The translations under genes were made by a program, and so were the position numbers. Below, piece after piece: positions 17,414 to 35,915 of a DNA stretch of 58,392 bases. The notes below the pieces were generated by a model that was given only the letters and a program-made list of their open reading frames with translations, searched no databases and was not told where the DNA came from. Position 1 is the stretch's first letter. Each line of letters starts with the position of its first letter. This stretch comes from Pseudobutyrivibrio ruminis (GTDB lineage: Bacteria; Bacillota; Clostridia; Lachnospirales; Lachnospiraceae): positions 1-58,392 of the forward strand of contig SVES01000018.1 in the NCBI GenBank assembly GCA_015057305.1, in the 5' to 3' direction.

Positions 17414-18853
17414 ATGAAAAAAATCAAAAAGATCATTGCTCTTGCTCTTGCAACAGTAATGATGATGGCAATGAGCATTACAGCTTTTGCCGAAGAGACA
17501 GAAATTGTCTACACAACAAACAATGCAACCATTACAATTACTAACATATCAAAAAGAGATGCTGAGACATCAGTAAGCATATATCCACTTGCTTACGTAA
17601 ATACAAAGACTAATACAGTTGATGTATTGTCTTGGGCTGAGAAGTTATATCCTGTTGATAAGACAACAGAACCATATCAGGAGTTGGTAGATAACTTTGA
17701 TGCAACAAAGCTAAAAAATGCACTTCCAGCAACTGCTTTACAGACAACAGTTTCAGAAAATGGGGCTGCTGTAAATTTTGAAAACCTTAAAGGCGGTGTA
17801 TATGTTATCACTATTACAGGTGCCAATGTAATTTATAATCCTTTGGTTGTAAAGGCTTATAAAAGCGATTCCGATGGTAATTATGAAGCAAAAGATGAAA
17901 CAGCAGTTGCAAAGCCATCTACAAATGTTGTAGAAAAGACAACTACAGATGGTCATGTAAAGGCTGGACAGATTGTTGAAGGCTTCCACATTACATCAAC
18001 AGTTCCATATAACAAAAATGAGTATAAAGTTTTTGATAAGGTTACTAATCTTGAAATTCTTCTTGATACAGTTAAGGTTACAGTAGGTGGAGAAGATGCA
18101 TCATTTACATTTATTAAAGGAGATGATGGTGTATATACTATGGACTTAACATCACTTGTAGTTGGTGATGAGGCAACAGTTAAATCAAATGTTGGTAAAA
18201 CAATAGAGATTACATATGATGCAAAGGTTGTAGGTGTTGGTGGCTATTCGAACCAGGCTTATGATTCTACATATGAATTTAAAGATGGAGAACCAGTAAA
18301 TCCGCCAACTGTTTATGGTTATTCAACAGATATCACGCTTATAAAGACAAATACTGAGGGTGATACATATCTTGAAAATGCTGAATTTACAGTAACCAAG
18401 TTAGCTGCTACAGATGCAGATGAGAACACAGAATTGAAATTTGTATATAACAATGATACAAAAGCTTATGAGCTTTCAGATGCAGAAGATGCAGAGGCTA
18501 CTATTAAGACAGATAAAAATGGTGAAGTTAAAATTTGTGGACTTGATGAAGGTGAATATCACTTTACAGAAACAAAAGCTCCTGAAGGATATGCTATTAA
18601 TCCAGATGGTATAACAGTAACTGTTAATGATATGAGTGAAGAATTAAGAACAGTTTCAAATGATAAGCTTACTGAGGCACAGAATAAAGAACTTCACAAG
18701 AAAGGTGAGGATACAACACTTAAGGATTCAACACTTGCTCAGCTCCCATTCACCGGTGGTATGGGTACAACAATTTTCACAGTACTTGGTGTAGCAATTA
18801 TGGTACTTGCAGCCACTCTTTACTTTGTTTCAAAGAGAAAGGCAACTAAGTAA
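17414..18853 (+). CDS. Major pilus backbone protein (SpaA-like, LPFTG)
   Basis: A 479-residue fimbrial shaft protein. The signal peptide (1-26, ending AFAEE) is followed by an N-terminal domain and a D2-type backbone domain. A C-terminal CnaB domain holds the E-box YHFTETKAPEGYA (about 375-390). LPFTG lies at 444-448, before a hydrophobic helix and the RKATK tail. A canonical VYPKN pilin motif is not visible. The lysine in AVAKPSTN (about residue 160), at the boundary of the first two domains, is the best candidate for the polymerising lysine. It has a strong GGAGAGAAAAGG ribosome site. A GC-rich hairpin downstream separates it from the sortase genes. Confidence 0.88.
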   Translation: MKKIKKIIALALATVMMMAMSITAFAEETEIVYTTNNATITITNISKRDAETSVSIYPLAYVNTKTNTVDVLSWAEKLYPVDKTTEPYQELVDNFDATKLKNALPATALQTTVSENGAAVNFENLKGGVYVITITGANVIYNPLVVKAYKSDSDGNYEAKDETAVAKPSTNVVEKTTTDGHVKAGQIVEGFHITSTVPYNKNEYKVFDKVTNLEILLDTVKVTVGGEDASFTFIKGDDGVYTMDLTSLVVGDEATVKSNVGKTIEITYDAKVVGVGGYSNQAYDSTYEFKDGEPVNPPTVYGYSTDITLIKTNTEGDTYLENAEFTVTKLAATDADENTELKFVYNNDTKAYELSDAEDAEATIKTDKNGEVKICGLDEGEYHFTETKAPEGYAINPDGITVTVNDMSEELRTVSNDKLTEAQNKELHKKGEDTTLKDSTLAQLPFTGGMGTTIFTVLGVAIMVLAATLYFVSKRKATK

Positions 18854-18975: not shown

Positions 18976-19869
18976 ATGAAGGCATTTTTTAAGAACAATT
19001 ACAAAACGATAGCTATAGCCGCTATGATGATTGCTGGTTTGTCCTTGTTGGTGTATCCACTTGTTGCAAATACTTGGAACAATCATGTGCAGGCTACTCT
19101 TGTAAATAATTACACAGAGTCAGTAGATGCAGCTATAAAAGAGGGAACCTTAGATGTTTCAGAAGAGTTTGAAAAAGCTTATGAATACAATGAAGAACTT
19201 TTACCAAGTATTCTGCCTGATTCATTTGCAGAGGCAGAGGCTAATGGCGCTGATGAAAACTACATGAGTTTGTTAAATGCAGATGGGGATGGAATCATGG
19301 GATATATCCAGATTCCAAGCATCAATGTAAAGCTCCCTATTTTCCATACAACATCAGAAGAGGTGTTACAGATAGGTGTTGGACATTTGCAAGGCTCATC
19401 ACTTCCAGTGGGCGGTGAAAGCACCCACTCAGTTCTATCAGCTCATAGAGGCTTGCCATCAGCAACACTTTTTACAGATTTGGATAAAGTAGAGATTGGT
19501 GACAATTTCTTTCTTATAATCATGGGTGAATATATTGCCTATGAAGTAGATCAGATAGAAGTAGTAGAGCCAGATGATACATCACTTCTACAGGTAGAGG
19601 AGGGACAAGACCTCTGTACACTTATCACCTGTACACCATATGGCGTCAATACTGAAAGGCTGATGGTTAGAGGTCACAGAGTAGAGTATGTACCAGAACT
19701 TTTAGAAGACGCAAGGACTCCACTATTTGGGGCAGTTAGTCTACATACAAATTACTTGTTATGGGTAATTGTTGGTTTAGTTATTGTAGGTGCATTTATT
19801 TTGGTGCTCTATTTCTTAGATAAAAAGAGAAATGCAAAGGGACAAAAGTGTGAAACAGAAAATAATTAG
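18976..19869 (+). CDS. Class C (pilus-polymerising) sortase 1
   Basis: A 297-residue membrane transpeptidase. An N-terminal membrane helix (about 8-30) and a C-terminal helix (about 258-282) flank the sortase barrel, the usual class C topology. The catalytic His157 lies in SAHRGLPS and Cys219 in LITCTPYG, with the arginine shortly after in RLMVRGHR. I do not see a DP(F/W) lid, so the active site may be open. It should join pilin subunits at their LPXTG motifs. AAGGAGAGG lies about 14 bases upstream, farther than usual. Its 3' end overlaps sortase 2, a tandem paralogue. Confidence 0.9.
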   Translation: MKAFFKNNYKTIAIAAMMIAGLSLLVYPLVANTWNNHVQATLVNNYTESVDAAIKEGTLDVSEEFEKAYEYNEELLPSILPDSFAEAEANGADENYMSLLNADGDGIMGYIQIPSINVKLPIFHTTSEEVLQIGVGHLQGSSLPVGGESTHSVLSAHRGLPSATLFTDLDKVEIGDNFFLIIMGEYIAYEVDQIEVVEPDDTSLLQVEEGQDLCTLITCTPYGVNTERLMVRGHRVEYVPELLEDARTPLFGAVSLHTNYLLWVIVGLVIVGAFILVLYFLDKKRNAKGQKCETENN

Positions 19870-20752
19870 AATTTGCTTAATTTTATTGTTCATAGCAGGT
19901 TTTGGTTTGCTTGCTTATCCTACTATTTCAAATGAATGGAACACTTACGTTCAAAGTACTTTGATTAATGATTATCAGAACTCTATCAATGAAATGACAG
20001 AGGAGGATTATACAGTAGAATGGGAAAAGGCTAAAGCATTTAATGCAACTATCACAGAAAATGCAATCGGCACAGATGTGTTTGGTACTAATGCTGATGG
20101 CAATGCAGCCACTCCTACAGAGGAGTTTCTTAACTCTGAGTATTATTCAGTTTTAAATGTAAATGGTGATGGAATTATGGGCTATCTGTCCATTCCAAAG
20201 ATAAACCTAAAGCTTTCCATTATGCATGGCACTTTTGATGAATATATTCAAACAGCGGTTGGCCATTTGAATGGAACGGCACTTCCTATTGGAGGAGGCA
20301 GCACCCATTCCGTAATTGTTGGACACAGAGGGCTTCCAAGTGCAGAGCTTTTCACAAATATAGACCAGCTTGAAGTTGGAGACAAGTTTTATATTCATGT
20401 GTTAGACGAGACCCTTGCATATCAGGTGGATATGATTTATCCAATGATTGAAGCAGAGGATATTGAAGCACTTTCCAATGCAATGCAGGTTGAGGAAGGT
20501 AAGGATTATGTTACACTTTTCACTTGCACACCATATGGTGTCAATACTCATAGACTTTTAGTACGTGGCACAAGAGTAGAATACTTAGGAGAGGATGAAC
20601 CACCAAAGGGCACAGCTGCCGTGGTTGATACAATAAAGAACTATTATTTGATATTTGGTATTGTTGGATTTATTCTAGCGCTTATTATAATTTTGATTTT
20701 AAGACAGATTTTCAAGAGAAAGGATGCTAAGTCCGAAGGGAGAAATCAGTGA
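19850..20752 (+). CDS. Class C (pilus-polymerising) sortase 2
   Basis: About 300 residues, a close paralogue of the sortase just upstream; both carry the GDGIMGY segment. His159 (VGHRGLPS) and Cys226 (LFTCTPYG) are in place, with NTHRLLVRG following. Helices at both ends place it in the membrane. I prefer the GTG at 19850, which has AAAGGGA upstream, over the in-frame ATG at 19832; either way the gene overlaps sortase 1. The stop overlaps the next start by four bases (GTGA), so expression is coupled. Two sortases for one backbone and one tip protein suggest that each prefers a different subunit. Confidence 0.88.
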   Translation: MKQKIIRICLILLFIAGFGLLAYPTISNEWNTYVQSTLINDYQNSINEMTEEDYTVEWEKAKAFNATITENAIGTDVFGTNADGNAATPTEEFLNSEYYSVLNVNGDGIMGYLSIPKINLKLSIMHGTFDEYIQTAVGHLNGTALPIGGGSTHSVIVGHRGLPSAELFTNIDQLEVGDKFYIHVLDETLAYQVDMIYPMIEAEDIEALSNAMQVEEGKDYVTLFTCTPYGVNTHRLLVRGTRVEYLGEDEPPKGTAAVVDTIKNYYLIFGIVGFILALIIILILRQIFKRKDAKSEGRNQ

Positions 20753-21867
20753 GAAAGTTAGGATTTAAAGGGAAAAATCTTATAGCGATTGCAGTTGTGG
20801 CAGTTATGGCTATGTCTGGCTTTGGTGTGTATCAGACCCAGGCAGCTGGTTCGGTTGATACTAACGCAAAGGTAACTATTACAGCTAAGCTTGCTGAGGG
20901 AGATGATTCTTTATTTGCCCAAAGATATACCGGACAAGTAGAGGTTAGGCTTTATAAAATTGCCACATTAGATTCCACTGGAAAAGCTACAATAACAGAT
21001 AATTTTTCTGATGCAGGAATTGATTTGGACACACTGAATTCGTCAAATGTAACTGTTGAAGACGTTCAGAAAAAAATAGTAGAACCTGCTTTAGCTGCCC
21101 TTGATAATTTGTATGGTACCGCTGACAACACTGATTATAAATCATTTAATGTAAATGTTAATAACGGCGAGGGCTCAGGTAATATAGAGCTTGAAAAAGG
21201 CGCAGGTATTTATCTTTATGTGCCACAGGATGTAACAGATTCACGTTATACCTATAGCTTTACATCCTATATTTTATTTGCTCCAAGTAGTGAGTATATT
21301 TCAGGGGAAGGAACCTCTGATACATGGAAATATGATGTAAGCTTTTATCTAAAATCATCAGCCACACCAAGACTTGGATATTTAGGAATAGCTAAGAGTT
21401 TGAAGACATATAATGAATCACTTGGCACAGCAAGTTTTGTCTATACAGTTGAAGCAAAGCTTGATGGTAAAACAGTTTTTTCAAATGTTTACGCTTTAAA
21501 TTTTAACAAGGCTGGAGAGGATTATATTGAGGTGGCAGATGAAGATGGCAATCCTATTATTCCAGCAGGGGCTGAGGTGACAGTTACTGAGGAATATACA
21601 GGTGCCAGTTATAAAATGACTGCAACATCTTATACAATGAATCAGCCAGATGAAAACGGTAATTATGTTACCAAAACAGTGGATACACCTGTTATTGATG
21701 CAGATGAAGTGCTTGTAGCTAATTTCACCAATGATTATGATGATGAGCTTCAGGTTGGTGGCATTAGTGTAATAAATACATTTGAATTAAATAGCAATGA
21801 CGAATATGTCTATGTTGGAAACAATATTGGTAATAATCAATCAGAGGATAATGAGGGAGGCAACTAA
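20749..21867 (+). CDS. Secreted pilin-like protein without sorting signal
   Basis: A 372-residue protein starting with GTG at the four-base overlap with sortase 2. A signal peptide (about 1-28, ending QAAGS) is followed by two beta-rich domains. The first resembles the N-terminal domain of backbone pilins (VEVRLYKIATLDSTGK). The second (about 205-345) resembles DUF5979-type adhesin repeats (VTVTEEYTGASY). Unlike its neighbours it has no LPXTG and no C-terminal membrane helix; it ends in an Asn/Glu-rich tail. It could be a free fibre subunit, attach by an isopeptide bond, or bind a TasA-like partner encoded next door. Function is not known. Confidence 0.7.
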   Translation: MRKLGFKGKNLIAIAVVAVMAMSGFGVYQTQAAGSVDTNAKVTITAKLAEGDDSLFAQRYTGQVEVRLYKIATLDSTGKATITDNFSDAGIDLDTLNSSNVTVEDVQKKIVEPALAALDNLYGTADNTDYKSFNVNVNNGEGSGNIELEKGAGIYLYVPQDVTDSRYTYSFTSYILFAPSSEYISGEGTSDTWKYDVSFYLKSSATPRLGYLGIAKSLKTYNESLGTASFVYTVEAKLDGKTVFSNVYALNFNKAGEDYIEVADEDGNPIIPAGAEVTVTEEYTGASYKMTATSYTMNQPDENGNYVTKTVDTPVIDADEVLVANFTNDYDDELQVGGISVINTFELNSNDEYVYVGNNIGNNQSEDNEGGN

Positions 21868-21869
21868 TC

Positions 21870-22373
21870 ATGAAACATAGAAGGCTTGTAATAATAGCTG
21901 CAGCCCTTGCCATGATAGGGGCTGCTTCTGTGGGACCAGCAATGGCTTATTTTACAGACACCCATATAGCAACTGGAATGGTATCTGTAAATCTTGCAGA
22001 TTCAAAGCTTACCCCACACGAATCTGTGGAGGATATGATAAAGACCATTGAGATTGAAAATACTGGAAATTATGATGTGTACGTTAGGGCCAAGGCAATC
22101 TTTGGCAGTACAGTTTCTGCTGAAATAGCAGACGGCTCCAGTGAGAAATGGTCAAAAGCAGAGGGCGACGATTATTATGTATATAGTGAAGTGTTAAAGC
22201 CTAACGAAAAGACAGAAGCTTTAAAGCTTAGAATTATTCCACCAGACGATACTACACAGGATAGCTTTAATGTGGTTATTGTTGAAGAAGCGACTAAAGC
22301 TTTGTACAAGACAGATGGAACTTATGAGGCGCCAGATTGGAGCCTTGCTATAAATAAAGTGGAGGGTGAGTAA
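21870..22373 (+). CDS. TasA/camelysin-like protein with SipW-type signal peptide, 1
   Basis: A 167-residue secreted protein. Its leader ends in GPAMAYFTDTHIATG, the form of signal peptide that in Bacillus is cut by the special signal peptidase SipW (TasA, camelysin and relatives). The mature part is a single beta-rich domain that includes VKAIEIENTG-like and NYDVYVRAKA segments typical of the family. TasA-type proteins assemble into matrix fibres. The stop and the next start share a base (TAATG). A SipW-type domain is encoded about 3.2 kb downstream, fused to a sortase, and would be the expected processing enzyme. Confidence 0.75.
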   Translation: MKHRRLVIIAAALAMIGAASVGPAMAYFTDTHIATGMVSVNLADSKLTPHESVEDMIKTIEIENTGNYDVYVRAKAIFGSTVSAEIADGSSEKWSKAEGDDYYVYSEVLKPNEKTEALKLRIIPPDDTTQDSFNVVIVEEATKALYKTDGTYEAPDWSLAINKVEGE

Positions 22374-23122
22374 TGAATAACAGAATAAAACACCCTATTA
22401 TTGTTTTTGCAGCAGGAATAGTACTATTAGCTGCTAGCTCTATTGGGGCAACAAGAGCTACATTTACTTATCAAAGTGATGCACAGCAGGTAGATTTTTC
22501 CACCTCCACTTTAACCGTAGCTTTACAAGAGGAGCGCGACGGCAAATTCGTGGATGTTGCTGAGGATGGGCAGTTAGTATTTTCATCACTTCAAAATGAT
22601 GATGGAGAATACGATTTTAATATCGGACAGGATTACCCTGAAAATGTTCAGGTGGTTAACACCTCTCCAGGTGGCTATGACGAGTATGTGAGGGTAGTTG
22701 TTCGCAAAAGCTGGGTTAAAGACGGGGTAAAGGATACAGAACTTAATCCAGATGCTATTGTATTAGATTATGCTGCTGGCTGGATAATTGATGATGAAAC
22801 TGAAGAAGGAGTAGTGCTATATTATCCAACACCTCTAAAGGCAATTAACCAGGATGCCAGTGCAAAAGTGCCAGTTATTAATAACATAAGAATTGACAAT
22901 ATGATATGGAAATATGTCAAAACCGTGGATAAAGAAGGGGAGAAAGGCACAATTATAAATGAGTACAAATATAATGATGAAGCCTTCCTTGTTGAGTTGA
23001 GAGTAGATGCGGTTCAAGCACATAATGGACAGGATGCAATTCTTGGCGCTTGGGGTGCAGATGTGGAATTAAGTGGTAATACTATCACTAGCGTTAATGG
23101 CTCTACAATAAAGACTGAGTAA
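22373..23122 (+). CDS. TasA/camelysin-like protein with SipW-type signal peptide, 2
   Basis: A 249-residue secreted protein, translationally coupled to the preceding one. The leader ends in GATRATFTYQSDAQQVDF, similar to the SipW-cognate pattern, and is followed by STSTLTVALQEERDG, also typical. The mature domain is larger than in the first copy and includes PGGYDEYVRVVVRKSW, which recalls the TasA beta-sandwich. It has no anchor. It may be the second component of a two-protein fibre, as TasA and TapA are in Bacillus; this pairing is inference. Confidence 0.68.
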   Translation: MNNRIKHPIIVFAAGIVLLAASSIGATRATFTYQSDAQQVDFSTSTLTVALQEERDGKFVDVAEDGQLVFSSLQNDDGEYDFNIGQDYPENVQVVNTSPGGYDEYVRVVVRKSWVKDGVKDTELNPDAIVLDYAAGWIIDDETEEGVVLYYPTPLKAINQDASAKVPVINNIRIDNMIWKYVKTVDKEGEKGTIINEYKYNDEAFLVELRVDAVQAHNGQDAILGAWGADVELSGNTITSVNGSTIKTE

Positions 23123-23134
23123 AGGAGAGTAGGG

Positions 23135-24016
23135 ATGAAAAAGAAACATTTGAATATCGTGCTTGCTCTTGCAGTATCTTTTTTTGGACTCGCTGGATTA
23201 AGTATTGACGCTAAGGCAGAGACAGAGAATGTTAATTGGGAGGTTACCTACACTGGTTCAAGCTTTGAATCCACATATGAAGCGGATAAGGCAAAGCTTT
23301 CTAACGCAATGCCAGGTGATACAATTAATTTCGTTGTTGATTATGTAAATGGCACAACTGGAAGTGCAGATTTTTATATGAGCGCTGACGTGCTTAAGAC
23401 GTTGGAAGATAACAAGGTTGCTACGGGTGGTGCTTATTCCTATAAGATTACCTCTACAACAACTACAAACCCTACGATTTTTGATAGCAAAACAGTTGGT
23501 GGCGATGCATCTTCTGCAGATAGTGTAGTTGGCTTAGCCCAGGTTGATGAGGGTGAGGGAGCGTATTTTTCGTTAGGAACAATAGCTTCTGGTGCCTCAG
23601 GAACTGTAACTATTTCTATTGACCTAGATGGTAATTCACAAAATAATTCTTATATGTCAGCTTTGGCTCAGTTGGATATCAGATTTGGTGCAGAACCTAC
23701 CTCTGAAAAAGAAGAAAACAAGACTGAATATAAGACAATAACCAAAACAAATACTATAGTTAATAAAATTGTTAATCACGATAAGAAGTCTATAGTTAAG
23801 CAGGTATCAAGAACCCTAGAAGATGGAAATCAAATTGTCATCATTGATGAGGAGCAGGTTCCAACAAATGGAACTACATATATAAGTGGCTCCAATCCTC
23901 AAACAGGGGATTCAATTATACCATTAGTTGTCTGCTTTATATTTTTGCTTGTAGGAATTGCTTTGGTACTTTGGTATTTCAAATTAACCAGGGACAACAA
24001 AAAGGAGGGAGTCTAA
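23135..24016 (+). CDS. NPQTG-anchored surface protein
   Basis: A 293-residue secreted protein with a signal peptide (1-28, ending AKAET), a beta-rich domain (about 30-190) and a stalk. It ends in NPQTGDS (N254 onward), a hydrophobic helix and a TRDNKKEGV tail. NPQTN-like motifs are the substrate type of class B sortases, as in Staphylococcus IsdC. This fits the class B sortase encoded in the fusion gene downstream and differs from the LPXTG motifs of the pilins. AAAGGAGAG precedes the start. The next gene begins at the TAATG junction. It is likely the wall anchor for the TasA-like fibre; that role is inferred. Confidence 0.78.
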   Translation: MKKKHLNIVLALAVSFFGLAGLSIDAKAETENVNWEVTYTGSSFESTYEADKAKLSNAMPGDTINFVVDYVNGTTGSADFYMSADVLKTLEDNKVATGGAYSYKITSTTTTNPTIFDSKTVGGDASSADSVVGLAQVDEGEGAYFSLGTIASGASGTVTISIDLDGNSQNNSYMSALAQLDIRFGAEPTSEKEENKTEYKTITKTNTIVNKIVNHDKKSIVKQVSRTLEDGNQIVIIDEEQVPTNGTTYISGSNPQTGDSIIPLVVCFIFLLVGIALVLWYFKLTRDNKKEGV

Positions 24017-25161
24017 TGAGAAACTTTAAGAGAAATTTAGGCATACTCCTATCATTAGTATTTGTACTGCTTGCATATTTTGCTTTTCCTATTACTGCGG
24101 AAGCAGGTTATACATATAGAATTAAGATAGCATTGGGAAATAATGAAAATGCATATTTTGATCAAGAGGTGGTTGAGCAACTAAAGGCTAAATATACGGT
24201 TGAATACCCAGTTACAAGACAGTCGGATGACAAGTCTATTAACGATCAACTTATTATCAGTAACTTAGCATATGATGCAAAGGTCACTTTTGATGTAGAT
24301 GATTTGATTAAGATTGATAACGCAAATGTGGATGAAAATGCTACTCAATATTACGTTAAGGGCTTGAGAACATCAGGAGCTGATGATGTGCTTCCTATGA
24401 CTGATAAAAAGGAAATCACATTTACAGTGGAAGGTGATGAAACCTATGTTGTAGCATATGGCGTTGGTGCTACCATTCCTTATACTGTAAGGTACGTGGA
24501 TGCAGAAGGAAACCAGCTTTTGGAAGACGATACCTTATATGCCGCTGAAGGTGAAATAATATATGTTCCAGCCAGACATATAGATGGATATTCACCAGAT
24601 GCATATTATCGCACTGCATCAAAGGGCTTAAAAAAGGATACTACATTTACCTTTAAATATACCAAGGGGACAGCCAAAACCATTTATTCTGAGGAGGAAG
24701 TAACAGTCACAAATGATGAAACTGTAGAGGGTTCTCCAGAATATGAATATGAGTATCAATATGTGGATGGTGGTGCTTCAACCATCATCAACAATAATGG
24801 AACATCTACAAGCACCATACATGAGACAGTCACAGGCAATGGTGGAGTTACAAATAACAGAGAAGTGACTACTGAGGGTGATAATGCGGGTGCAGGTGCA
24901 GGTGGCGATGGCAATGCCGCAGGAAATGCAGATGGAGACGGAGCAAATATTACCGATAATACTCCACGTGATGTAATCGATATCGATGATGAGGATGTAG
25001 CTCTTGCAGGCGGAACAAGAGATACGCTTGTGCGAAATACAATTATCGGAGTCATCATTGCAATTTTAGCAGTAATAGCAATCCTTGTTACTTTGTATAT
25101 TGCAGATAGAAAGCGCAAGGGTGAAATTGCAAGGGCGGTAGAGGATAAAGATAGTAAATAA
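24016..25161 (+). CDS. MucBP-like membrane surface protein with DEDVALAGG motif
   Basis: About 381 residues from the ATG at 24016, which has AAAGGAGGG upstream and overlaps the previous stop; an in-frame upstream ATG lacks such a site. A signal peptide (about 1-30, ending AEAG) is followed by a beta domain. A MucBP-like domain (about 155-215; YTVRYVDAEGNQLLEDD) comes next, then a Gly/Asn-rich stalk. The C-terminal region has DDEDVALAGG (about 325-333), a membrane helix and a basic tail. No LPXTG or NPQTN is seen. The DEDxxLA motif recurs in four membrane-anchored proteins of this window. It is the last gene of the pilus unit; a terminator follows. Confidence 0.75.
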   Translation: MRNFKRNLGILLSLVFVLLAYFAFPITAEAGYTYRIKIALGNNENAYFDQEVVEQLKAKYTVEYPVTRQSDDKSINDQLIISNLAYDAKVTFDVDDLIKIDNANVDENATQYYVKGLRTSGADDVLPMTDKKEITFTVEGDETYVVAYGVGATIPYTVRYVDAEGNQLLEDDTLYAAEGEIIYVPARHIDGYSPDAYYRTASKGLKKDTTFTFKYTKGTAKTIYSEEEVTVTNDETVEGSPEYEYEYQYVDGGASTIINNNGTSTSTIHETVTGNGGVTNNREVTTEGDNAGAGAGGDGNAAGNADGDGANITDNTPRDVIDIDDEDVALAGGTRDTLVRNTIIGVIIAILAVIAILVTLYIADRKRKGEIARAVEDKDSK

Positions 25162-25168
25162 GATTTTT

Positions 25169-25199
25169 GAGGAGGTTCTTTTGAACTTCCTCTTTTTTT
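25169..25199 (+). terminator. Terminator of the pilus/TasA-like unit
   Basis: GAGGAGGTTC and GAACTTCCTC form a 10-bp stem with one G-T pair and a TTTT loop, followed by seven T. Confidence 0.9.
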
Positions 25200-25303: not shown

Positions 25304-25594
25304 ATGGCAAAAAGAATATTGCGAAAAGTATTATTGATTGTAGGTTTATGTTGTGCAATCTATATGCCAGCGTTTGCTGAGGAAAAAGCTACAGCTTCCG
25401 ATGTAAAAGAGGAACAGACTAAGGAGACTGTGGAGATTGCTGACGAGGAAGTTCCGCTTGGTTTGGAGAGTTATGATGATTTTGAGCGGTACAAAAGAGA
25501 TTTAATAGTAATGATAATATTTGGCGGTATGATTGTGCTCATCACAGTTGCTGCCACCGCAAAAGAAAAATATGAGAGGGACAAATCAAACTAA
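25304..25594 (+). CDS. Mini membrane surface protein with DEEVPLG motif
   Basis: A 96-residue protein with a signal peptide (about 1-25, ending AFAEE) and only some 40 exposed residues. These are rich in Glu/Lys/Thr and contain DEEVPLG (47-53). A membrane helix (about 68-86) and a charged tail follow. The motif resembles DEDTPLA and DEETPLA near the C-termini of both serine-rich adhesins. It is essentially a bare copy of that C-terminal module. Its stop lies 2 bp before the fused signal peptidase-sortase, so the two are expressed together. It may be an accessory subunit or membrane adaptor of that enzyme. I do not recognise a family. Confidence 0.7.
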   Translation: MAKRILRKVLLIVGLCCAIYMPAFAEEKATASDVKEEQTKETVEIADEEVPLGLESYDDFERYKRDLIVMIIFGGMIVLITVAATAKEKYERDKSN

Positions 25595-25596
25595 CA

Positions 25597-26817
25597 GTGA
25601 TGAACATAAAAGCGTTTAGGATAATTGGGACAATATTAATATTGGCAGTAATCATTGTAGCTGCGCCGGTAGCAATTCCTAGGCTGGTTGGTATTAGCAG
25701 CTACAATGTTATATCAGGATCAATGGAGCCTACTATTTCGGTTGGCTCCATTGTCTATGTGAAGGGACAAGATTTTGATAAGCTTTCTGTTGGAGATATT
25801 ATTGCTTTCAACTCAGGGGCAAGTGTTGTAACTCACAGAATTACAGCAATTGATTCAGAAAGTATGCTAATTACTACAAAAGGTGATGCAAATTCTGAGG
25901 AGGATTTTACTCCTATAGCTTATACTAATGTTATAGGTAAGGTGGTATTTCATATTCCAGTATATGGAAATATAGCAGCTATGGTATCCGAGACTGGTGG
26001 CAAGGTTGTTGCTGCAATACTTCTCATTTTAGGCACTATTTTTTCTATGGTTGGGGAAGAAAAGCAAAAGCCACAAAATGTTAATCCTAAGATTTTCTTG
26101 GTACTAGGCTTAGTTATTGTGTTTGGGGCCCTAGCTGGTTTTACATATATTTATTTTGGATATAAGCAATCTAATGATTTATACGCAAGCATAAATACAA
26201 ATTATGTTCAAATCTCTGATAGTGAACAGTGGCAGGATTTAATAAATGTTGATATACAAAAGCTACAAGAGATTAATCCTGAGGTTGTAGGCTGGATTTA
26301 TGTTGAGGGGACGGATATAAGCTATCCAATCATGTATTCGGCAGATGATGAAAAATATTTGCATACTACAATCACCTCAGAATATGCTAAGGCTGGTTCA
26401 ATATTTCTGGAGGGATACAATCTTCCAGATTTTTCTGATAGTCACAGCATAATATATGGTCATAATATGCGGAATCTATCAATGTTCGGTAGCTTGAAGT
26501 ATTATAAAACTGAAGATAATTATTTTGATGATCATAGATATTTTCAAATAATCACCAAAGATAAGAAAATGAGGTTTGAGATTTTTTCATATTTTGATAC
26601 AGAAGCAGCATCTTGGGTGTACACAGTTCCATATTCTGACTCCCAGGACTTTGAGGATTATATCGCAGAATTATTAGCACATTCTTATATAAAGCAGGAA
26701 AATTCAGGCACTAGCGTTAGTTCCGCAGATACCGTTGTAACCCTATCAACCTGTTCGAATACTGGGATGAGGTTTACAGTTCACGGAGTTTTGAAGGAAA
26801 CTGTATCGGGTAATTAA
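25597..26817 (+). CDS. SipW-type signal peptidase fused to class B sortase
   Basis: A 406-residue polypeptide with two enzymes. The N-terminal part (1-155) is a SipW/ER-type signal peptidase: a membrane helix, the nucleophile Ser42 in SGSMEPT, His80 in VTHRI in place of the bacterial lysine, TTKGDAN, and a second helix. A further helix (about 164-188) leads into a sortase domain (about 205-402) with His289 in IIYGHNM, Cys386 in TLSTCS and Arg392 in GMRFTVHG. GWIYVEGTDISYPI is the class B signature. All catalytic residues of both halves are present and there is one uninterrupted frame. Starts at 25597 (GTG) or 25600 (ATG) are equally possible; the ribosome site is weak. Nearby genes encode SipW-type leaders and an NPQTG protein, plausible substrates for each half. 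Confidence 0.88.
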   Translation: MMNIKAFRIIGTILILAVIIVAAPVAIPRLVGISSYNVISGSMEPTISVGSIVYVKGQDFDKLSVGDIIAFNSGASVVTHRITAIDSESMLITTKGDANSEEDFTPIAYTNVIGKVVFHIPVYGNIAAMVSETGGKVVAAILLILGTIFSMVGEEKQKPQNVNPKIFLVLGLVIVFGALAGFTYIYFGYKQSNDLYASINTNYVQISDSEQWQDLINVDIQKLQEINPEVVGWIYVEGTDISYPIMYSADDEKYLHTTITSEYAKAGSIFLEGYNLPDFSDSHSIIYGHNMRNLSMFGSLKYYKTEDNYFDDHRYFQIITKDKKMRFEIFSYFDTEAASWVYTVPYSDSQDFEDYIAELLAHSYIKQENSGTSVSSADTVVTLSTCSNTGMRFTVHGVLKETVSGN

Positions 26818-26962: not shown

Positions 26963-29900
26963 ATGTCTAAGAAGGTTGAAAGTTTATTAAAGGGAGTTGC
27001 AATAACAGGTGCCACTGTTGGAGGGGCATCAGTACTTGGAGATGCTAATTTAGCATATGCGGCTGAGCTTGGCGAGGAGCAAGCCGCAGCTGCTGAAGGG
27101 GTTTTGACTTTGGAAATTGCTGCAGAGCAGCAGGCAGTTGAACAGGTGGTTGAGTCTGTTCAAACTGAGCAGGTTGCTGTACAGGCTGCCGAGCAGGCTG
27201 AGACTCAGATAGAAGAATTGGCCTCTGATGCGACAGTACAGACAGAGGAAATTGCCTCTGGGGCAGAGCAGCAGGTGGATTCTAATGAAGCAGCTGTCAC
27301 CTCTGAGGAAAATGAAGCTTCAAATTTAGCAAGTACTTCATTATCAAATGAAGATTCGCAAATAAGTTCTACATCTGCTGTAGCTAGCGATTCACTTTCT
27401 ACAGAAGATTCAGAAATAGCATCTGTTTCTACATCAGCACAGGAGTCTTTGACATCTGAAAACGACAGTCTTTCTGCAGCATCACAATCTGTATCAGAGC
27501 AGCAGGCAAGTGAGGCTAGCAGTCTTTCTACTGCAGTTTCAGAGGCAAATTCAGAATACGAATCAACATCAAATTCATTCTCCGAGGCAGGACTTGAGGA
27601 CGAATACCTTGAGGATTTGATTCGCCAAATTGAAGAAGCAAAGGCAGAGCTAGAGGCAGCACAGCAGGTTGCTATTGATAATAATCAAGGCTTAAATCAT
27701 AGTAGTACATCTAATAATTATTATGGTTATGGTGATAAGCTTGCCAATCTTCTTATTCAGTATGCATTCTATCAGGAAGGCTATGTTGGGGAAATAATAT
27801 ATAGTGAATGGGATTCAAGTAGCTACGTCACAAATAGTGTAAAAATCACATATATCGATTCTGCTGGTGAGACTAAGTATGCCTATTTTGACTATGTAAC
27901 TGTTGATAGTGATGGCAATGCATTAGTTCCAAGTGATAATGAAGGTTTTAGCGGTACAGCTAATTCTTCTCAGCATGATAATCCAAATGTTGTTGGCGGC
28001 ATCATGGTTGTAAAGAAGACAGTAGAGTACAGCGATGGCAATGGAAATGTGTTGACATGGGAGTATGAAACTGAGACAGCTGAGGATGGTACAGAGACTA
28101 CAGTTTGTCACTATTATGTCAATGGAGAACAGGTAGATGATGATGTTACGGTTACTCTAAATGAAGATGGTACTTTTGAACTTTCGCAGACAGAGGAAAA
28201 TGATTCAAAGTCTGTAGAAGTAGAAGAATACAAAGTTTGGGGAGAATATGTCGATGCACATCAGTATATTTCTTCTGATGGAACAGTATATAAAGATTTA
28301 GGATATTATCCAGCACCTACAGCTGACAACGGCAGTTCATGGAATAACATGTATGGTGTCACTGTAAATATGAGTGATGATACGCTTGGGGTTTTAGAAA
28401 CAGATGAAGATGATAATACTGTTATCTCAACACTTGTTGATGAAGATGGTAATGAAGTTAAGTTTGTTGCAAAAAAGCCTAGCCGCTATCAAGGAAACCA
28501 ATGGAATTGGACTGATAGGTATACAGCTGTTCAAATAGGTGATCAGACTTATTATTTTAGTAATGCGCGAATCATCAATAATGGTGATGGAACATATACA
28601 TTTACAGGATATTATGACAAAAATGGGGCTTCAAGCGTGCAGCAAAGTGTAATGCTTTATACATCTGCAGCGGCTTCTACAAATACAATGACATTTAGTC
28701 CTAAATTTGTTGCAAAGGAAAGCGATGGTTCTGAAATATACTACAACAATGCTGGAGAAGCAAAGGATGGTAACTTTGGTAAAAAGGGCTATGCATATTT
28801 TACCTTAGACGATTTTAATAAAGGTAAGGACGATTATCATGAGCAGAGAAGCGAGGTAACATCTGCATCAGAATCTGCAAGTGCCAAGGAATCAGAATCT
28901 GTATCCTGGGAAGCTTCTGTAAGTGCAAGTGAGCAAATGTCAGACAGTGTTTCACAACTAAGAAGTGATTCTCTCTCAGAATCAGCTCAGGCATCAGACA
29001 GTGCTTCTGCATCAAGAAGCGAGTCATTATCAGATAGTGCCAAGGAATCAGAAAGTGAATCTGCATCAAGGAGTGAATCTTTATCGGACAGCGCAAGTGT
29101 ATCTGATGCAAGGTCAGAGTCAATAAGTAATTCTCTTTCTGAGAGTGCAAGCATGAGTTTAAGCATAAGTGAGTCACTGAGTGAGAGCCTTTCAGCTTAT
29201 GTAAGCGAGAGTATGTCAGTTAGTGCTAGTATTTCTGCAAGTGAGTCAGCAAGTACAAGTGCATCACTAAGCGAATTAGCAAGTTTAAGTGAAAGTACAA
29301 GTGCGAGCATATCATTGAGTGAGTCAGTAAGTGCAAGTGAAAGCACATCACTAAGTGAGTCAACAAGTGCGAGCACCAGTGTATCATTAAGCGAATCAAC
29401 AAGCGCAAGCACAAGCACATCACTAAGTGAGTCAACAAGTGTAAGTGAAAGCGCATCACTAAGTGAGTCAACAAGTGCGAGCACCAGTGCGTCAACAAGT
29501 GCGAGCACCAGTGCGTCATTAAGTGAATCAACAAGCACAAGTATTTCAGCTAGCGAGAGCACCTCGACATCAGTTAGTTTAAGTGATAGCACCAGTGCAT
29601 CATTAAGTGAGTCAATAAGCGCAAGCATAAGTACATCACTGAGTGAGTCAGTAAGTACAAGTACTAGCACATCATTGAGTGAGTCAGTAAGTACAAGTAC
29701 TAGCACATCACTGAGTGAGTCAGTAAGTGCAAGTGAAAGCACATCACTGAGTGAGTCAGTAAGTACAAGTACCAGCACATCATTGAGTGAGTCAGTAAGT
29801 ACAAGCGCTAGCACATCACTGAGTGAGTCAGTAAGTACAAGCACTAGCACATCATTGAGTGAGTCAGTAAGTGCAAGTGAAAGCGCATCACTAAGTGAGT

Positions 29901-31537
29901 CAACAAGTGTAAGTACCAGCACATCACTAAGTGAGTCAACAAGTGCAAGTGTTTCAAATAGTGAGAGTGTATCAACATCAACAAGCATAAGTGTAAGTAC
30001 TAGCACATCATTGAGTGAGTCAACAAGCACAAGCACAAGCGAATCACTAAGTGAGTCAACAAGCGCAAGTACAAGTACATCATTAAGTGAGTCAACAAGT
30101 GCAAGTGTTTCAAATAGTGAGAGTGCATCAACATCAACAAGTATAAGTGTAAGTACCAGCACATCACTAAGTGAGTCAGTAAGTACAAGCACAAGCGCAT
30201 CACTAAGTGAGTCAACAAGCGCAAGCACAAGTACATCACTGAGTGAGTCAGTAAGTGAAAGTGAAAGCACATCACTGAGTGAGTCAGTAAGTACAAGTAC
30301 CAGCACATCACTGAGTGAATCAGTAAGTGCAAGCGCAAGCACATCATTGAGTGAGTCAGTAAGTATAAGCGCAAGCACATCATTGAGTGAGTCAACAAGT
30401 GCAAGTATTTCAACTAGTGAAAGCGCATCAACCTCAGCTAGCATAAGTGAAAGCACAAGCGCATCACTGAGTGAATCAATAAGTGCAAGTGTTTCAAATA
30501 GTGAGAGTGTATCAACATCAACAAGCATAAGTGAAAGCACAAGCATATCACTTAGTGAATCTATAACAATAAGTTTGAGCGAGAGCACAAAAGCTTCTCA
30601 ATCAATAAGTGAGTCTGTAAGTGAAAGCTTATCAGAATCAGCAAGTATTAGTGAATCAGTGAGAGCAAGCCTAAGCGAAAGCACATCATTATCAAATAGT
30701 GCTAGCTTATCAGAATCAGTAAGCTTGAGTGAAAGTGAATCAACAAGTGCAAGCTTAAGCGAAAGCGCATCACTGTCAAATAGTGCTAGTTTATCAGAGT
30801 CGGAAAGCTTAAGTGAAAGTGAATCAACAAGTGCAAGCTTAAGCGAGAGTACATCATTATCAAACAGTGTTAGCTTATCAGAGTCAGTAAGCTTGAGCGA
30901 AAGTACATCAATTAGCGCTAGACTAAGTGAGAGCGCAAGCATATCCCTTTCAGAGAGTGCTAGTATGTCACTTTCAGTAAGCCTAAGCCTATCAGCAAGC
31001 ATGAGTGAAAGTGCATCAATTAGAGCAAGCCAGAGAGCATCAGAGTCTGCAAGCTTAAGCACTAGCTCGTCAGAATCAGCGAGTGCATCAGCAAGTGCTT
31101 CGGAAGCAGCAAGCAGTGCAGCAGTTACAAGCACAACAGGTGATTCAGGAAATAGTGGTTCAACAACTACAACATCAGCTAGTGAATCAAGCACTACTGC
31201 AAGCACAACATCAACTGCCTCAACTACTTCATCATACAATGAAGTTTCTGAGAATACTGGAAATGTAACAGTTACCACATTTAATGAGCTTGGTGCTGAA
31301 ACAACAGATATTTCTGATGAGCAGGTACCACTTGCCGTTAGATTAGATGACGGTGATGAGGCAAGAAACATAAATGCTGTTTCTATCAATGACGAGGACA
31401 CTCCACTTGCCGCAAGAAAGAGTGGAATGGGTCAAAGAGCATGGTGGTATTGGATTTTGATTATCATTAGCGCAATCACAGGTAAGGTAGCTAAAGATAA
31501 GAGAAATGACATGAAAACAGAGGATTCAGAGAAATAA
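26963..31537 (+). CDS. Serine-rich repeat glycoprotein adhesin 1
   Basis: A 1524-residue surface adhesin. The leader [19 protein letters not shown] (from residue 3) is glycine-rich, as in accessory-Sec substrates, and closely matches that of adhesin 2. An Ala/Glu/Gln-rich segment (to about 110), a first Ser-rich stretch (about 125-205) and a folded putative binding region (about 210-620) follow. A long SxSxS region (about 630-1380) is expected to be O-glycosylated. Near the end come DEQVPLA (1452) and DEDTPLA (1477-1483), then WWYWILIII as a membrane helix and a charged tail. There is no LPXTG. Export by the SecA2/SecY2/Asp system encoded downstream is expected from family knowledge. The ribosome site is AAAAGGAG. 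Confidence 0.88.
28854..31105 (+). repeat. Serine-rich repeat array of adhesin 1
   Basis: Degenerate repeats of the form SLSESxSxSxS, with Ser encoded by a mix of AGT, AGC and TCA. Blocks such as [17 protein letters not shown] recur many times in the middle third. Long open frames on the other strand here are by-products of the repeat. Confidence 0.85.
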
Positions 31538-31789: not shown

Positions 31790-33091
31790 GTGATTATCAT
31801 GGTATATATTGTAGATAAGATATGTAATTATATAATTTTTATATTTCTAATGCATTTTTGTTGGAGAATTCCGTTTAGAAAAAATAAAGCTTGTGTTGTT
31901 TGTTCGGCGCTATCATGTGGTTTAGCGGGTCTAATAGATTCATATTTTGGAAAAGATCAGTTGTTTGTTTATATTGTGTGGTGTTTTATGTCCATGAATC
32001 TTATGTTCAATAGGAAAATATATAAAACATCACTTCTTACAGCATTTCTCATATGGTTCACAGGAATGATAGATACATTTTCAGTTATCATAGTACAGAT
32101 ATTTTTTATTCGTGGAGCAACTACTACAAGCGAAATATTGCAGTGGTGGCAGTTATCTGCATATGCTATATCGTTTATCATTGAATATGGATTTTATAGA
32201 TTTATCTTAAAAAGAAATAATGTCTATATGGACTCAATAAAGCTACGTTATAAAATAGGTATTTTAGTACTGACGATGATGTTTGAATTAGTAGTTACTG
32301 AAGTATATAACATATATTATCGGAATCAATCTTATTATGAACTTTATCTTCATATAAGATTTATTTTATGCTTATTTGGTGTTATTTATTCGTTGGCAAT
32401 AACATTACAATTAGCAGTTAAAAACTATTTATATGACGAGCAGAATAAAGGATTGAAACAAGCTTTAGAAATACAGCATAGTCAATATTTATATACAAAA
32501 GACAAAAATAATGACATTCGAAGATTTAGACATGATTTAGTTAATCATATTGGTGCAATACAGGAGTTATTAAGTAAGCAGCAATATGAAAGTGCACAGA
32601 AATATATTGGAAACATATGGAACATTACTGAGAGCTTATCTAACAAAATTAGTACAGGTGATGATTATGTAGATGCTGTACTAAATTATTACTTATATTT
32701 ATGTGAAAAAGAAAATGTAAAAGTAGAAATAAATGGAAAAGTAAAAGATAAAGTTGAAATGGATGTTCTTGATATCACTTCTCTTCTAGGAAATGCTTTG
32801 CAGAATGCTTATGAAGCAACTCGGCAGACCACTAATAGATATGTAGAGGTTGAAATAGTAGATCATAGTCAGGAAACATTTTTGTCAATTAGTAACACAT
32901 CACTAAAAATGGAAATTCCGTCAGATTATCAAATTCAGACAAGTAAAAATGATAAATTAAATCATGGATTCGGATTAAAAAATATAGTGAGTATAATAAA
33001 AAAATATGATGGAGAATACTATATAACGACAAGTGAGACAGTAATGGGGAATATGTTTAAATTAGAAATATCAATTCCCAGAAAAAGGTAG
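31790..33091 (+). CDS. AgrC-like sensor histidine kinase
   Basis: About 433 residues. The N-terminal half holds six or so membrane helices (about 1-215). A coiled linker and a GHKL kinase domain follow. The phosphoacceptor is His248 in RRFRHDLVNH, and the ATP-binding N box is in GNALQNAYEATRQ. A glycine box, GFGLKNI, is near the end. This is the layout of AgrC/ComD-type peptide sensors. No AgrD-like peptide or AgrB gene is visible nearby, so the signal is unknown. The start may be GTG at 31790 or ATG at 31799; neither has a strong ribosome site. The response regulator gene follows without a gap. Confidence 0.88.
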   Translation: MIIMVYIVDKICNYIIFIFLMHFCWRIPFRKNKACVVCSALSCGLAGLIDSYFGKDQLFVYIVWCFMSMNLMFNRKIYKTSLLTAFLIWFTGMIDTFSVIIVQIFFIRGATTTSEILQWWQLSAYAISFIIEYGFYRFILKRNNVYMDSIKLRYKIGILVLTMMFELVVTEVYNIYYRNQSYYELYLHIRFILCLFGVIYSLAITLQLAVKNYLYDEQNKGLKQALEIQHSQYLYTKDKNNDIRRFRHDLVNHIGAIQELLSKQQYESAQKYIGNIWNITESLSNKISTGDDYVDAVLNYYLYLCEKENVKVEINGKVKDKVEMDVLDITSLLGNALQNAYEATRQTTNRYVEVEIVDHSQETFLSISNTSLKMEIPSDYQIQTSKNDKLNHGFGLKNIVSIIKKYDGEYYITTSETVMGNMFKLEISIPRKR

Positions 33092-33805
33092 ATGATGGTA
33101 GTAGGAATAGTAGAAGATGAAGTGATTTGGGCAAACAAAATAAAGGATTACATAAAGGAGTATTTTGTTATTACAAATCATAAGGATTATGAAATTATTA
33201 CATGCTTAAATGAAGCTGAGTTAAATAAATGTATAGAAAAAATTGATTTATTATTTCTTGATGTAGAGCTAGAGGGGACTGAAAATGGGTTTGAAATAGC
33301 CGAGCGAATTCAGAAAAAAGAGTATAAATGTAAAATTTGCTTTCTAACATCGCATATCGAGTATGCAAGGATGGGATACAAAGTAAACGCATATAGGTAC
33401 ATTGATAAGTATTATTTAGATGAAATAAATGAAGCATTGGCCACATATAATGCACAGATTTCAAAAACTGAATATATTGAATGTAAGGATGAAGATGGTG
33501 CCATAGAATTGATAAATATTGGACAATCATTATATGTGGAATTAGTCAATAGAAGGCTTTGCTATAATTTTGCAGGCGGGAAAAAATATTTTAGTGAGGG
33601 TAAGTTAAAAAATCTTGCTGAAAAATATGAATCATTAGGTTTTATACAAGTTCAAAGATCGTATCTTGTCAACATGAAATATATAAGAAAATATGATAGT
33701 AGACATCTTGTAATGATAGATGATACACAGATAACAATAAGTCGTGATAGGTTGCAATCATTCAAAAAGAAGTATTTTGATTATAGAAAAAATAATATAG
33801 ATTAA
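33092..33805 (+). CDS. LytTR-family response regulator
   Basis: A 237-residue regulator with a receiver domain (1-120; acidic pair E8/D9, phospho-acceptor Asp57 in LLFLDVELEG, conserved Thr/Ser in CFLTSH) and a C-terminal LytTR DNA-binding domain (about 135-235). This is the AgrA/LytR type that binds imperfect direct repeats about two helical turns apart. It is adjacent to its kinase. The paired 20-bp-spaced repeats upstream of the lysin remnant directly downstream, and of the pilus and adhesin genes, are candidate targets; this link is inferred. Confidence 0.9.
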   Translation: MMVVGIVEDEVIWANKIKDYIKEYFVITNHKDYEIITCLNEAELNKCIEKIDLLFLDVELEGTENGFEIAERIQKKEYKCKICFLTSHIEYARMGYKVNAYRYIDKYYLDEINEALATYNAQISKTEYIECKDEDGAIELINIGQSLYVELVNRRLCYNFAGGKKYFSEGKLKNLAEKYESLGFIQVQRSYLVNMKYIRKYDSRHLVMIDDTQITISRDRLQSFKKKYFDYRKNNID

Positions 33806-33924: not shown

Positions 33925-35915
33925 ATGTCAGTAACATGGGCAAATTGGTTTAAATTTGACAGGGGTACAAGTAGATCATCTAATTCTATTACCCCAAGAA
34001 TGAAAGCAACGAATGATAAGCAAGAGGTAAAAATAGAAGAAAAAAACATAACAAATAAAAATATTTTTGGTGAGGCAGCTTCGCTTGAATTAAGTGACGG
34101 CTTTTTTACAGAAAAGTCGTATAGTCCAGCAATGCTAATGGAAAATAAGGCAACAGCAAGGACTTTAAAAGTTGGTTCTAGAGGGGATGATGTAAAACGA
34201 TTACAAGAAAACCTTAATACTTTAGGGTTTAACACAGGAAAGCCAGATGGAATATTTGGTGAAGGAACAAAGAAAGCAGTTATAGCATTTCAAAAATCCA
34301 AAGGATTAACAGCAGATGGAGTAGTTGGATCTGGAACTCAGAATGCTATAACTAGAGCCATTAACGAAAAAAATTCGGCAACTAATGGTGTTTTAAAGGT
34401 GGGAAGTAGAGGCTCAAGAGTATCAAATCTTCAGAATTCATTAAATGCCTTAGGATATAATGCTGGTAAAGCAGATGGAATATTTGGAACAGGTACACAG
34501 AACGAGGTTATACGCTTTCAAAAAACCTATGGTTTAACTGCAGATGGACAGGTTGGGGCTAATACTGAATCTGCAATAAATAAGGCTCTTAATTATAAGA
34601 AGAATAATATATTAGCAAAAGGCCAAGTAAGTAATGATGTAAAGAATTTGCAAAATGATTTAAAGACTTTAGGTTATTTATCAGGAAAAGCAGATGGTGC
34701 TTTTGGTGCAGGAACAGAATCAGCAGTAAAAGCTTTCCAAAAGAAGTATGGATTACCAGCTGATGGCTTGGCTGGTACATCTACAAGGACTAAAATTGCA
34801 GAAGCAATAAAAGAAAAAAATAAGCCTAGACCAGAAAGTAATATTTTGAAGTTGGGTAGTAAAGGAGAAATGTTAGGACCTTACAAAATAATCTAAATAC
34901 TTTAGGTTATAGTGCAGGAACGGCTGATGGACAGTTTGGTAATAACACGCAAACAGCAGTAACGAAATTCCAAAAAACTTATGGTTTGACAGCCGATGGA
35001 CAAGCTGGTCCTACTACATTGAATGCTATTAATCAAACAGTAAAATATAAGAATTAAAAAATACTTTCAAAGGGGCAAATAAGTGATGATGTGAGAACAT
35101 TGCAGACCAATCTTAAAAAACTTGGTTACTTATCGGGAACTGTTGATGGAGTATTTGGGACTGATACAGAGTCAGCAGTAAAAGCATTTCAAAAAGCTAA
35201 TGGATTGACACAGGACGGATTAGCTGGAGAAACTACTAGAAACAAGATTACTTCAATAGTGAAAAATAGTTCGGAAACTACAGAAACAGAAAAAACAGGA
35301 GAAAATAGTGGTAATAATTCTACATCGATAGCGGGGACGAGTAGAAATGTAGGAATAGACGCTAGTTATAAATATACAGGAAGTTATAGAGAAAACGCAG
35401 AATATGTATGGGGTGAGTTATTAAAAGCAGGCTTTTCAAAAGAAGCAGCAGCAGGAGTAATGGGAAATTTGACAATAGAACATGGATTTAATACCTCTTG
35501 GGAGGGGGATCAAGGCTCAGTTGGAATTGTGCAATGGAGAGGTAATCGAAAGGATGGCTTGGTAAAATATGCTAAAGAACAGAATATGAGTGAAACTAGC
35601 ATAATAACACAGACGAAATATCTAATAGAGGTAGATATGCCAAATAGAATTGGTTCGGATGCATTTGAAAAATTAAAAAAAATGGGGGATTTTATAGATG
35701 CAACAGATTATTTCTGTGACAAAGTAGAGTCTCCATCATCTTATAAGAATAAAACAGATTGGGAGAATGGAAAATATGGTCCGAATTATGGTGCACATGG
35801 TGGACCTTATATGATAAGTTGGGATAGGTATACATGGTCTGAACAATTAGGAAAATACGAATTAGACTTGGGAAGACGGAGAAATGCAGCCAACTATTGG
35901 TATAATCAATTTTAA
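33925..35915 (+). pseudogene. Broken lysin: five peptidoglycan-binding modules plus phage-type lysozyme domain
   Basis: The start at 33925 (MSVTWANWFKF) has AAGGAGGA upstream. Three intact PG_binding_1 modules follow (about 34167-34360, 34396-34580, 34618-34810; each with a KADGIFG or PDGIFG-like core). In the fourth, the frame shifts near 34880, so the first reading frame stops at 34896. The missing half of the module continues in another frame. That frame then meets an in-frame TAA at 35055-35057, where the other linkers have a sense codon. A fifth module and a tail-lysozyme-like domain (about 35380-35915; GVMGNLTIEHGFNTSW) follow. Two independent lesions argue for decay. A GTG at 35091 could still yield the C-terminal part as a 274-residue protein. 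Confidence 0.8.

Follow-up and report, generated by a model that had tools for sequence, protein, structure and literature searches.

One polypeptide with signal peptidase and class B sortase domains, encoded in a surface-protein gene cluster of Pseudobutyrivibrio ruminis

Signal peptidases and sortases act at opposite ends of surface-protein maturation. In a 58,392-nucleotide contig of Pseudobutyrivibrio ruminis (SVES01000018.1 of assembly GCA_015057305.1; this whole stretch is referred to as the window) we have investigated a gene at positions 25597-26817 that joins the two kinds of enzyme in one polypeptide. The gene lies in a cluster which encodes, in order, a pilin-like protein, two class C-like sortases, a DUF5979 protein, two proteins (T1 and T2) whose leaders are of the SipW type or SipW-like, a protein with an NPxTGD sorting motif (the NP protein), a MucBP-like protein, a small protein, the fusion, and a serine-rich protein (Table 1). 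The two sortases are presumably class C-like, a class taken from their neighbourhood.

Domains, topology and active sites of the fusion

The frame comprises 406 residues when read from a GTG codon, and its translation contains no internal stop. Of the two possible starts the ATG at 25600 is more likely, because the database copy of the protein (P0002, 405 residues) begins there and the small gene ahead of it ends at 25594. Residue numbers below count from this ATG; GTG numbers are one higher. Since the small gene stops right beside the start of the fusion, translation of the pair may be coupled.

Both halves scored above the cut-offs of NCBIfam models. The signal peptidase I model TIGR02228 matched residues 10-149 (88.7 bits, cut-off 51.85), and the class B sortase model TIGR03064 matched residues 165-389 (167 bits, cut-off 153.75). 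Pfam agreed (PF04203, 37.6 bits, cut-off 26.6; PF10502, 29.5 bits, cut-off 22.9), and the 17 sequence matches in the PDB were divided between 15 sortases, aligned with the C-terminal half, and two SEC11A signal peptidase subunits, aligned with the N-terminal half. In fold comparisons the sortase half had the SrtB fold, and the best match of the peptidase half was SipA. The initial annotation, made from the letters alone, had proposed a single chain of this kind, and with both halves detected by domain search the proposal is borne out. The frame is also open through residues 155-205, where a missed stop or frameshift had been considered, and all of the 120 best-listed homologues cover both domains.

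The half matching TIGR02228 is of the archaeal/SipW-like kind of signal peptidase, and to this extent the earlier label of a SipW-type enzyme stands. Against the Bacillus SipW model NF046067, on the other hand, it reached 78.2 bits, under the cut-off of 190, and literal identity with SipW was dropped on this ground; the half may work like SipW, yet it is not classed as SipW by that model. The bacterial signal peptidase I (SPase I) model TIGR02227 likewise stayed under its cut-off of 47 (24.1 bits, or 25.6 in the genome search). In a profile search of the window genome, a draft of 113 contigs that is 89% complete and in which absences are therefore provisional, the fusion was the only site over the TIGR02228 cut-off; contig C15 carries two SPase I genes of the ordinary kind.

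A structure model predicts one helix at about residues 3-29, ahead of the peptidase serine, and further helices after the peptidase domain at 122-150 (in two pieces) and 163-202. The number of three helices thus agrees with the initial annotation, albeit one of them precedes the peptidase active site, whereas all three had been placed after it. The linker between helices 2 and 3 is 10 to 52 residues long and net positive in 116 of the 120 homologues. Three helices with a short and mostly basic linker would put both catalytic domains outside, which supports the proposal that the two active sites share one membrane face.

S26B-type peptidases have a catalytic serine and a histidine (in place of lysine) plus an aspartate. 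Ser41 is kept in all 119 homologue rows that have the position (one row is without it), and His79, Asp96, Asp102, His288, Cys385 and Arg391 are each kept in 120 of 120. The residues first named as Ser42, His80, His289, Cys386 and Arg392 in GTG numbering were confirmed (41, 79, 288, 385 and 391 from the ATG). The presumed chemistry is Ser-His(-Asp) in one head and Cys-His-Arg in the other.

Table 1. Features of the fused gene and its cluster in the window
Feature	Position	Strand	Basis or remark
SpaA-type pilin-like protein, LPFTGG anchor	17414..18853	+	Pfam/NCBIfam, motif
Class C-like sortase (presumed class) adjoining the pilin	18976..19869	+	PF04203
Second class C-like sortase (presumed class)	19832..20752	+	PF04203
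DUF5979-type surface protein	20749..21867	+	Pfam
T1, SipW-leader protein, AYFTD junction	21870..22373	+	Likely substrate of the peptidase head
T2, SipW-like leader by eye	22373..23122	+	Likely substrate of the peptidase head
NP protein (NPxTGD), C-terminal membrane anchor and basic tail	23135..24016	+	Likely substrate of the sortase head
NPQTGD sorting motif	23894..23911	+	Sequence
MucBP-like membrane-anchored protein	24016..25161	+	22.2 bits, below the cut-off of 23
Terminator-like hairpin and T run	25169..25192	+	Lies after the MucBP-like gene, ahead of the small gene and the fusion
Small membrane protein	25304..25594	+	Ends 2 bases ahead of GTG 25597
Fused signal peptidase/class B sortase gene	25600..26817	+	ATG start; GTG 25597 alternative
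S26B-type signal peptidase domain	25687..25962	+	Residues 30-121; Ser41, His79, Asp96; predicted extracytoplasmic
Second membrane helix	25993..26049	+	Residues 132-150; structure model, prediction
Short basic linker, predicted cytoplasmic	26050..26085	+	Residues 151-162; prediction
Third membrane helix	26086..26154	+	Residues 163-185, first part of helix 163-202; prediction
Class B sortase domain	26155..26805	+	His288, Cys385, Arg391
Serine-rich repeat surface protein	26963..31537	+	Directly downstream of the fusion

Distribution of the fusion and its unfused relatives

A protein search gave 3848 matches among 7996 scored candidates, and the homologue counts in this report refer to the best 120 of the 3848. 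A hand count found both Pfam accessions (precomputed) on 81 of the 120, which also include diverged fusions of 43-55% identity. Named homologues among them go under 'class B sortase' or 'sortase B', with 'Signal peptidase I' (UniRef) for P0043 and P0064; the databases hold the fusion proteins under one half-name only.

Within the genus, 26 of 29 genomes have a fused match, one of them cut by a contig end; the match in G020, an 83% complete draft, is of a distant type. In G018 the two halves lie apart, and among the 29 genomes searched G001 and G007, both less than 90% complete, gave no match to the fusion. A survey of the family (348 genomes of 333 genera, E <=1e-35, up to five candidates scored per genome, hence a lower bound) revealed full-length fused proteins in at least G000 and G014 (genus), G285 and G341. 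In the class (391 genomes of 222 genera, E <=1e-50, up to four candidates scored per genome) the full-length proteins among the matches listed were those of G000 and G014 only. A second fused type is represented by the loci L058 and L089, in which both halves exceed the NCBIfam cut-offs; in the fused L091 the sortase half (153.3 bits) is just short of the cut-off of 153.75. A contig search with the single protein returned one locus, the stand-alone peptidase L008, and is little informative on spread. In a plasmid collection 23 records matched, none covering 80% of the query, and there was thus no sign of plasmid carriage there.

Unfused relatives show the two genes at varying distances. In L090 (G065) the peptidase and SrtB are two genes of the same cluster, in one frame with a single stop between them; the open frames overlap in L105 and L175, and abut or overlap by a few bases in L093. 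In L106 the genes converge, and in L096 a distance of about 4 kb within one cluster separates them. A filter that dropped open reading frames with more than 30% unknown residues or more than 30% overlap with a longer one had concealed the peptidase genes in L090 and L106, and both were recovered by re-examination. By a hand comparison of two thresholded lists, which gives a lower bound, at least 10 of 56 genomes with a strong peptidase match have the peptidase either fused to SrtB or no more than 5 kb from it. These are the four fused cases G000, G014, G285 and G341, four with adjacent genes on the same strand (G065, G083, G109, G254), one convergent (G360) and one with about 4 kb between the genes (G101).

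Linkage of the peptidase coincides with the presence of candidate substrate genes. Among 18 unfused loci, picked mainly by sortase score, genes for SipW-leader or NP proteins were found in five of five with a linked peptidase and in none of 13 without (Fisher p 0.0001). No such genes occur on the 7.7-kb contig of the fused L089. In G018 the cluster L173 has SrtB without the peptidase and is an exception to the association, while L174 has the peptidase without SrtB; each half directly follows a MucBP-like gene, which is the usual place of the fusion. Since the G018 halves sit in separate clusters, the activities, if both work, would serve in trans.

Unrooted trees were built from chosen loci, with 69 rows for the sortase (by a quick method; one sortase was entered three times, as L079, L107 and L115) and 28 rows for the peptidase. 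A single clade of fused proteins was rejected by the approximately unbiased (AU) test in both the sortase tree (p 4e-38; 3e-7 without the long-branched L091) and the peptidase tree (p 0.001). The sortase tree places the fused L089 and L058 with the unfused L090 (support 98). The peptidases paired with a sortase in L091 (fused), L093 and L105 (both adjacent) form one group of the peptidase tree (96/92), and the second peptidases of the same three loci form a separate one (99/96). Because the trees are unrooted, repeated fusion and repeated splitting are both compatible with these groupings. The clusters L091, L093 and L105 each contain two peptidase genes, and the sortase seems to have a peptidase subtype of its own there.

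Candidate substrates and conservation of the cluster

T1 scored 19.7 bits against the SipW-leader model TIGR04088 in the genome search and 17.4 as a scanned protein (cut-off 19), and it was the only TIGR04088 match at E <=1 in the window genome. T2 gave no TIGR04088 match and no family match in the Pfam and NCBIfam scans; its leader is SipW-like by eye. Identity of T1 as a TasA or BsaA protein was not established, as it scored 30.4 bits against the BsaA matrix family TIGR04090 (cut-off 60) and no TasA structure was among the matches listed in a structure comparison.

The leader of the NP protein, on the other hand, looks ordinary by eye. In place of the NPQTN motif that the initial annotation named for SrtB substrates, its sorting motif is of the type NPxTGD. 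In 20 of 21 clusters the NP protein has xPxT[G/S]D and, after it, a hydrophobic stretch, the first residue of the motif being N in 17, S in two and G in one; the exception is L058 (VKTGDE). The pilins of the same clusters differ in carrying LPxTGG, and the unfused outsiders L090, L106 and L096 lack the N-P and retain TGD alone. An NPxTGD motif beside the fusion is noteworthy because SrtB of Bacillus anthracis recognises NPKTG and needs Asp at P2' (PMC11987632). SrtB of Clostridioides difficile uses SPKTG, although SPSTG and SPQTG proteins were unprocessed in cells (PMC5569036). Leader type, motif and neighbourhood suggest that the peptidase head matures T1 and T2, and that the sortase head anchors the NP protein. 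In L043 (10369-12234) the NPxTGD and MucBP-like proteins are one frame, with NPVTGD and a membrane helix inside, either a second fusion or a sequence error.

The stretch from the DUF5979 gene to the fusion is conserved in the genus. T2 and NP genes are directly upstream of the fusion in 19 of 20 fetched genus loci, and in the other (G027) the entire cluster is about 15 kb upstream; T1 is likewise present in 19 of the 20, the one without it (L044) being at a contig end. The class C-like pair lies between the pilin and the DUF5979 gene in 10 of 21 clusters (window, L040-L042, L046, L047, L049, L053, L055 and L204), and farther upstream in most others. Strong matches to class C-like sortases (E <1e-60, hand count) occur in 26 of 29 genus genomes; in 23 of these 26 one shares a contig with the fusion (with the sortase half in the case of G018) and lies within about 21 kb of it. 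With such enzymes nearby, the pilins have a likely polymerase of their own. The fused sortase had been considered as the sole possible pilin polymerase, as no class C-like sortase was seen within 9 kb upstream of some fusions, but this was rejected since such sortases lie farther upstream.

Possible roles of the fusion and known systems

We consider it probable, albeit by no means secure, that the 405-residue protein is a two-headed membrane enzyme in which one head removes the SipW-type or SipW-like leaders of T1 and T2 and the other attaches the NPxTGD protein encoded nearby to the wall. The products of both heads would belong to one surface fibre or pilus, T1 and T2 being putative fibre proteins, and its LPxTGG pilins would be joined by the class C-like sortases of the cluster. 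A single chain would keep the two activities in a 1:1 ratio and at one place in the membrane, and the steps need not be chemically coupled. One membrane enzyme would then likely carry out two surface-building steps that are usually left to separate enzymes. A further idea, which we offer tentatively and regard as rather doubtful, is that in Lachnospiraceae a fibre-maturing peptidase and an anchor-fixing class B sortase were joined more than once, so that subunit release takes place exactly at the site of wall-anchor installation and a fibre begins to grow on its own anchor.

Stand-alone SipW of Bacillus subtilis resembles the fusion as a specialised signal peptidase with dedicated biofilm-matrix substrates, here TasA and TapA; it differs in lacking a sortase partner in the chain, and the fusion falls far short of the Bacillus SipW model. 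Searches of an open-licence paper library found no account of the fusion, in agreement with the statement in the initial annotation that none was known. The nearest precedents are separate pairs. In the sipW-bsaABCRSD locus of Clostridium perfringens, a SipW-type peptidase, srtB just upstream, a SipW-dependent polymer protein and a two-component system occur together (PMC7395162). There BsaA depends on sipW for its export and polymerisation; sipW and srtB are separate genes, BsaA is without a predicted LPXTG-like signal, and deletion of srtB left the BsaA polymer and the pellicle unchanged (PMC7395162). The SipA/Spy0129 pair of the Streptococcus pyogenes pilus operon brings a signal-peptidase fold together with a class B sortase, and the pilus needs both, for reasons that these papers leave open (PMC4049620, PMC3019223). 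These, too, are separate proteins; SipA is without catalytic residues, and Spy0129 itself polymerises pilin (PMC4049620, PMC3019223). The fusion thus differs from the C. perfringens pair in being one chain and from the S. pyogenes pair in having a complete peptidase active site. SrtB of B. anthracis and Staphylococcus aureus shares the class B fold, the Cys-His-Arg residues and the NPxTG motif with Asp at P2' that is found beside the fused gene, but it is a stand-alone enzyme with the haem protein IsdC as substrate (PMC11987632). In the rumen relative Butyrivibrio proteoclasticus B316, a pilus-like island (Bpr_I0893-I0898) groups a signal peptidase with sortases and LPxTG proteins; the available part of that report mentions no fusion (PMC2914790).

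The initial annotation had gone further and held that leader removal and wall attachment are physically coupled. In this form the claim is unsupported: the likely substrates of the two heads differ, the halves are split in G018, and srtB of C. perfringens is dispensable. A terminator-like hairpin after the T1-T2-NP-MucBP genes, which sets the small gene and the fusion apart from them, also counts against tight coupling, though weakly, as six such sites were found in the region and 8.2 were expected by chance; a promoter scan of the region (67 found, 64.5 by chance) was uninformative. Some coupling of the two steps is plausible.

If both heads acted in turn on the same NPxTGD precursor, with the leader removed first, the C-terminal signal processed second and the substrate passed from site to site, the presence of the two sites on one chain and, by prediction, on one face would be explained, and the NP protein does have a leader as well as a sorting signal. 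We judge this rather improbable, since the SipW-type leaders are those of T1 and, by eye, T2, and not that of the NP protein, and since the halves are separate in G018. An arrangement as in the S. pyogenes pilus, in which the peptidase half would act chiefly as a cofactor that presents pilin and the sortase half would polymerise it, is also improbable, given the invariant Ser, His and Asp here (119-120 rows), which SipA is without, and the class C-like sortases near the fusion. An equally small chance is given to a neutral fusion of adjacent genes with unrelated activities and no benefit from linkage. In-frame or overlapping neighbour pairs (L090, L105, L175) and the separate halves of G018 would suit it, whereas retention of the fused form throughout most of the genus and the occurrence of fused proteins in more than one clade speak against it. 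An artefact such as a missed stop or a chimeric assembly, or a decayed half with an inactive domain, for which no support was found beyond the draft state of the window genome, is refuted for the family as a whole by the homologue and genus counts, with both domains and the catalytic residues kept.

The fusion, as we prefer to read it, offers a two-step surface-display enzyme. With a conserved fusion, unfused neighbours and the split G018 at hand, the need for co-located activities becomes directly testable.

Other genes in and near the cluster are also of note. A 1737-residue protein (12183-17396) that combines VWA and SpaA domains with an LPETGG anchor is possibly a pilus tip adhesin. Downstream of the cluster, a GHKL histidine kinase and a LytTR response regulator (31790-33805) are placed like a cluster regulator, and a peptidoglycan-binding protein of the phage-tail-lysozyme type (PF18013) is encoded at 35091-35915. 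The large surface proteins at 26963-31537 and 43135-46638 have a common N-terminal profile (SRRN) and a terminal anchor without LPxTG, and the latter contains a T4 gp5-type trimerisation repeat (PF22178). By eye, many cluster proteins have a motif [I/V]x[D/E][D/E]xxPLA shortly before a C-terminal membrane helix (window 25304-25594, 24016-25161, 26963-31537 and 43135-46638), which could be a sorting or processing signal.
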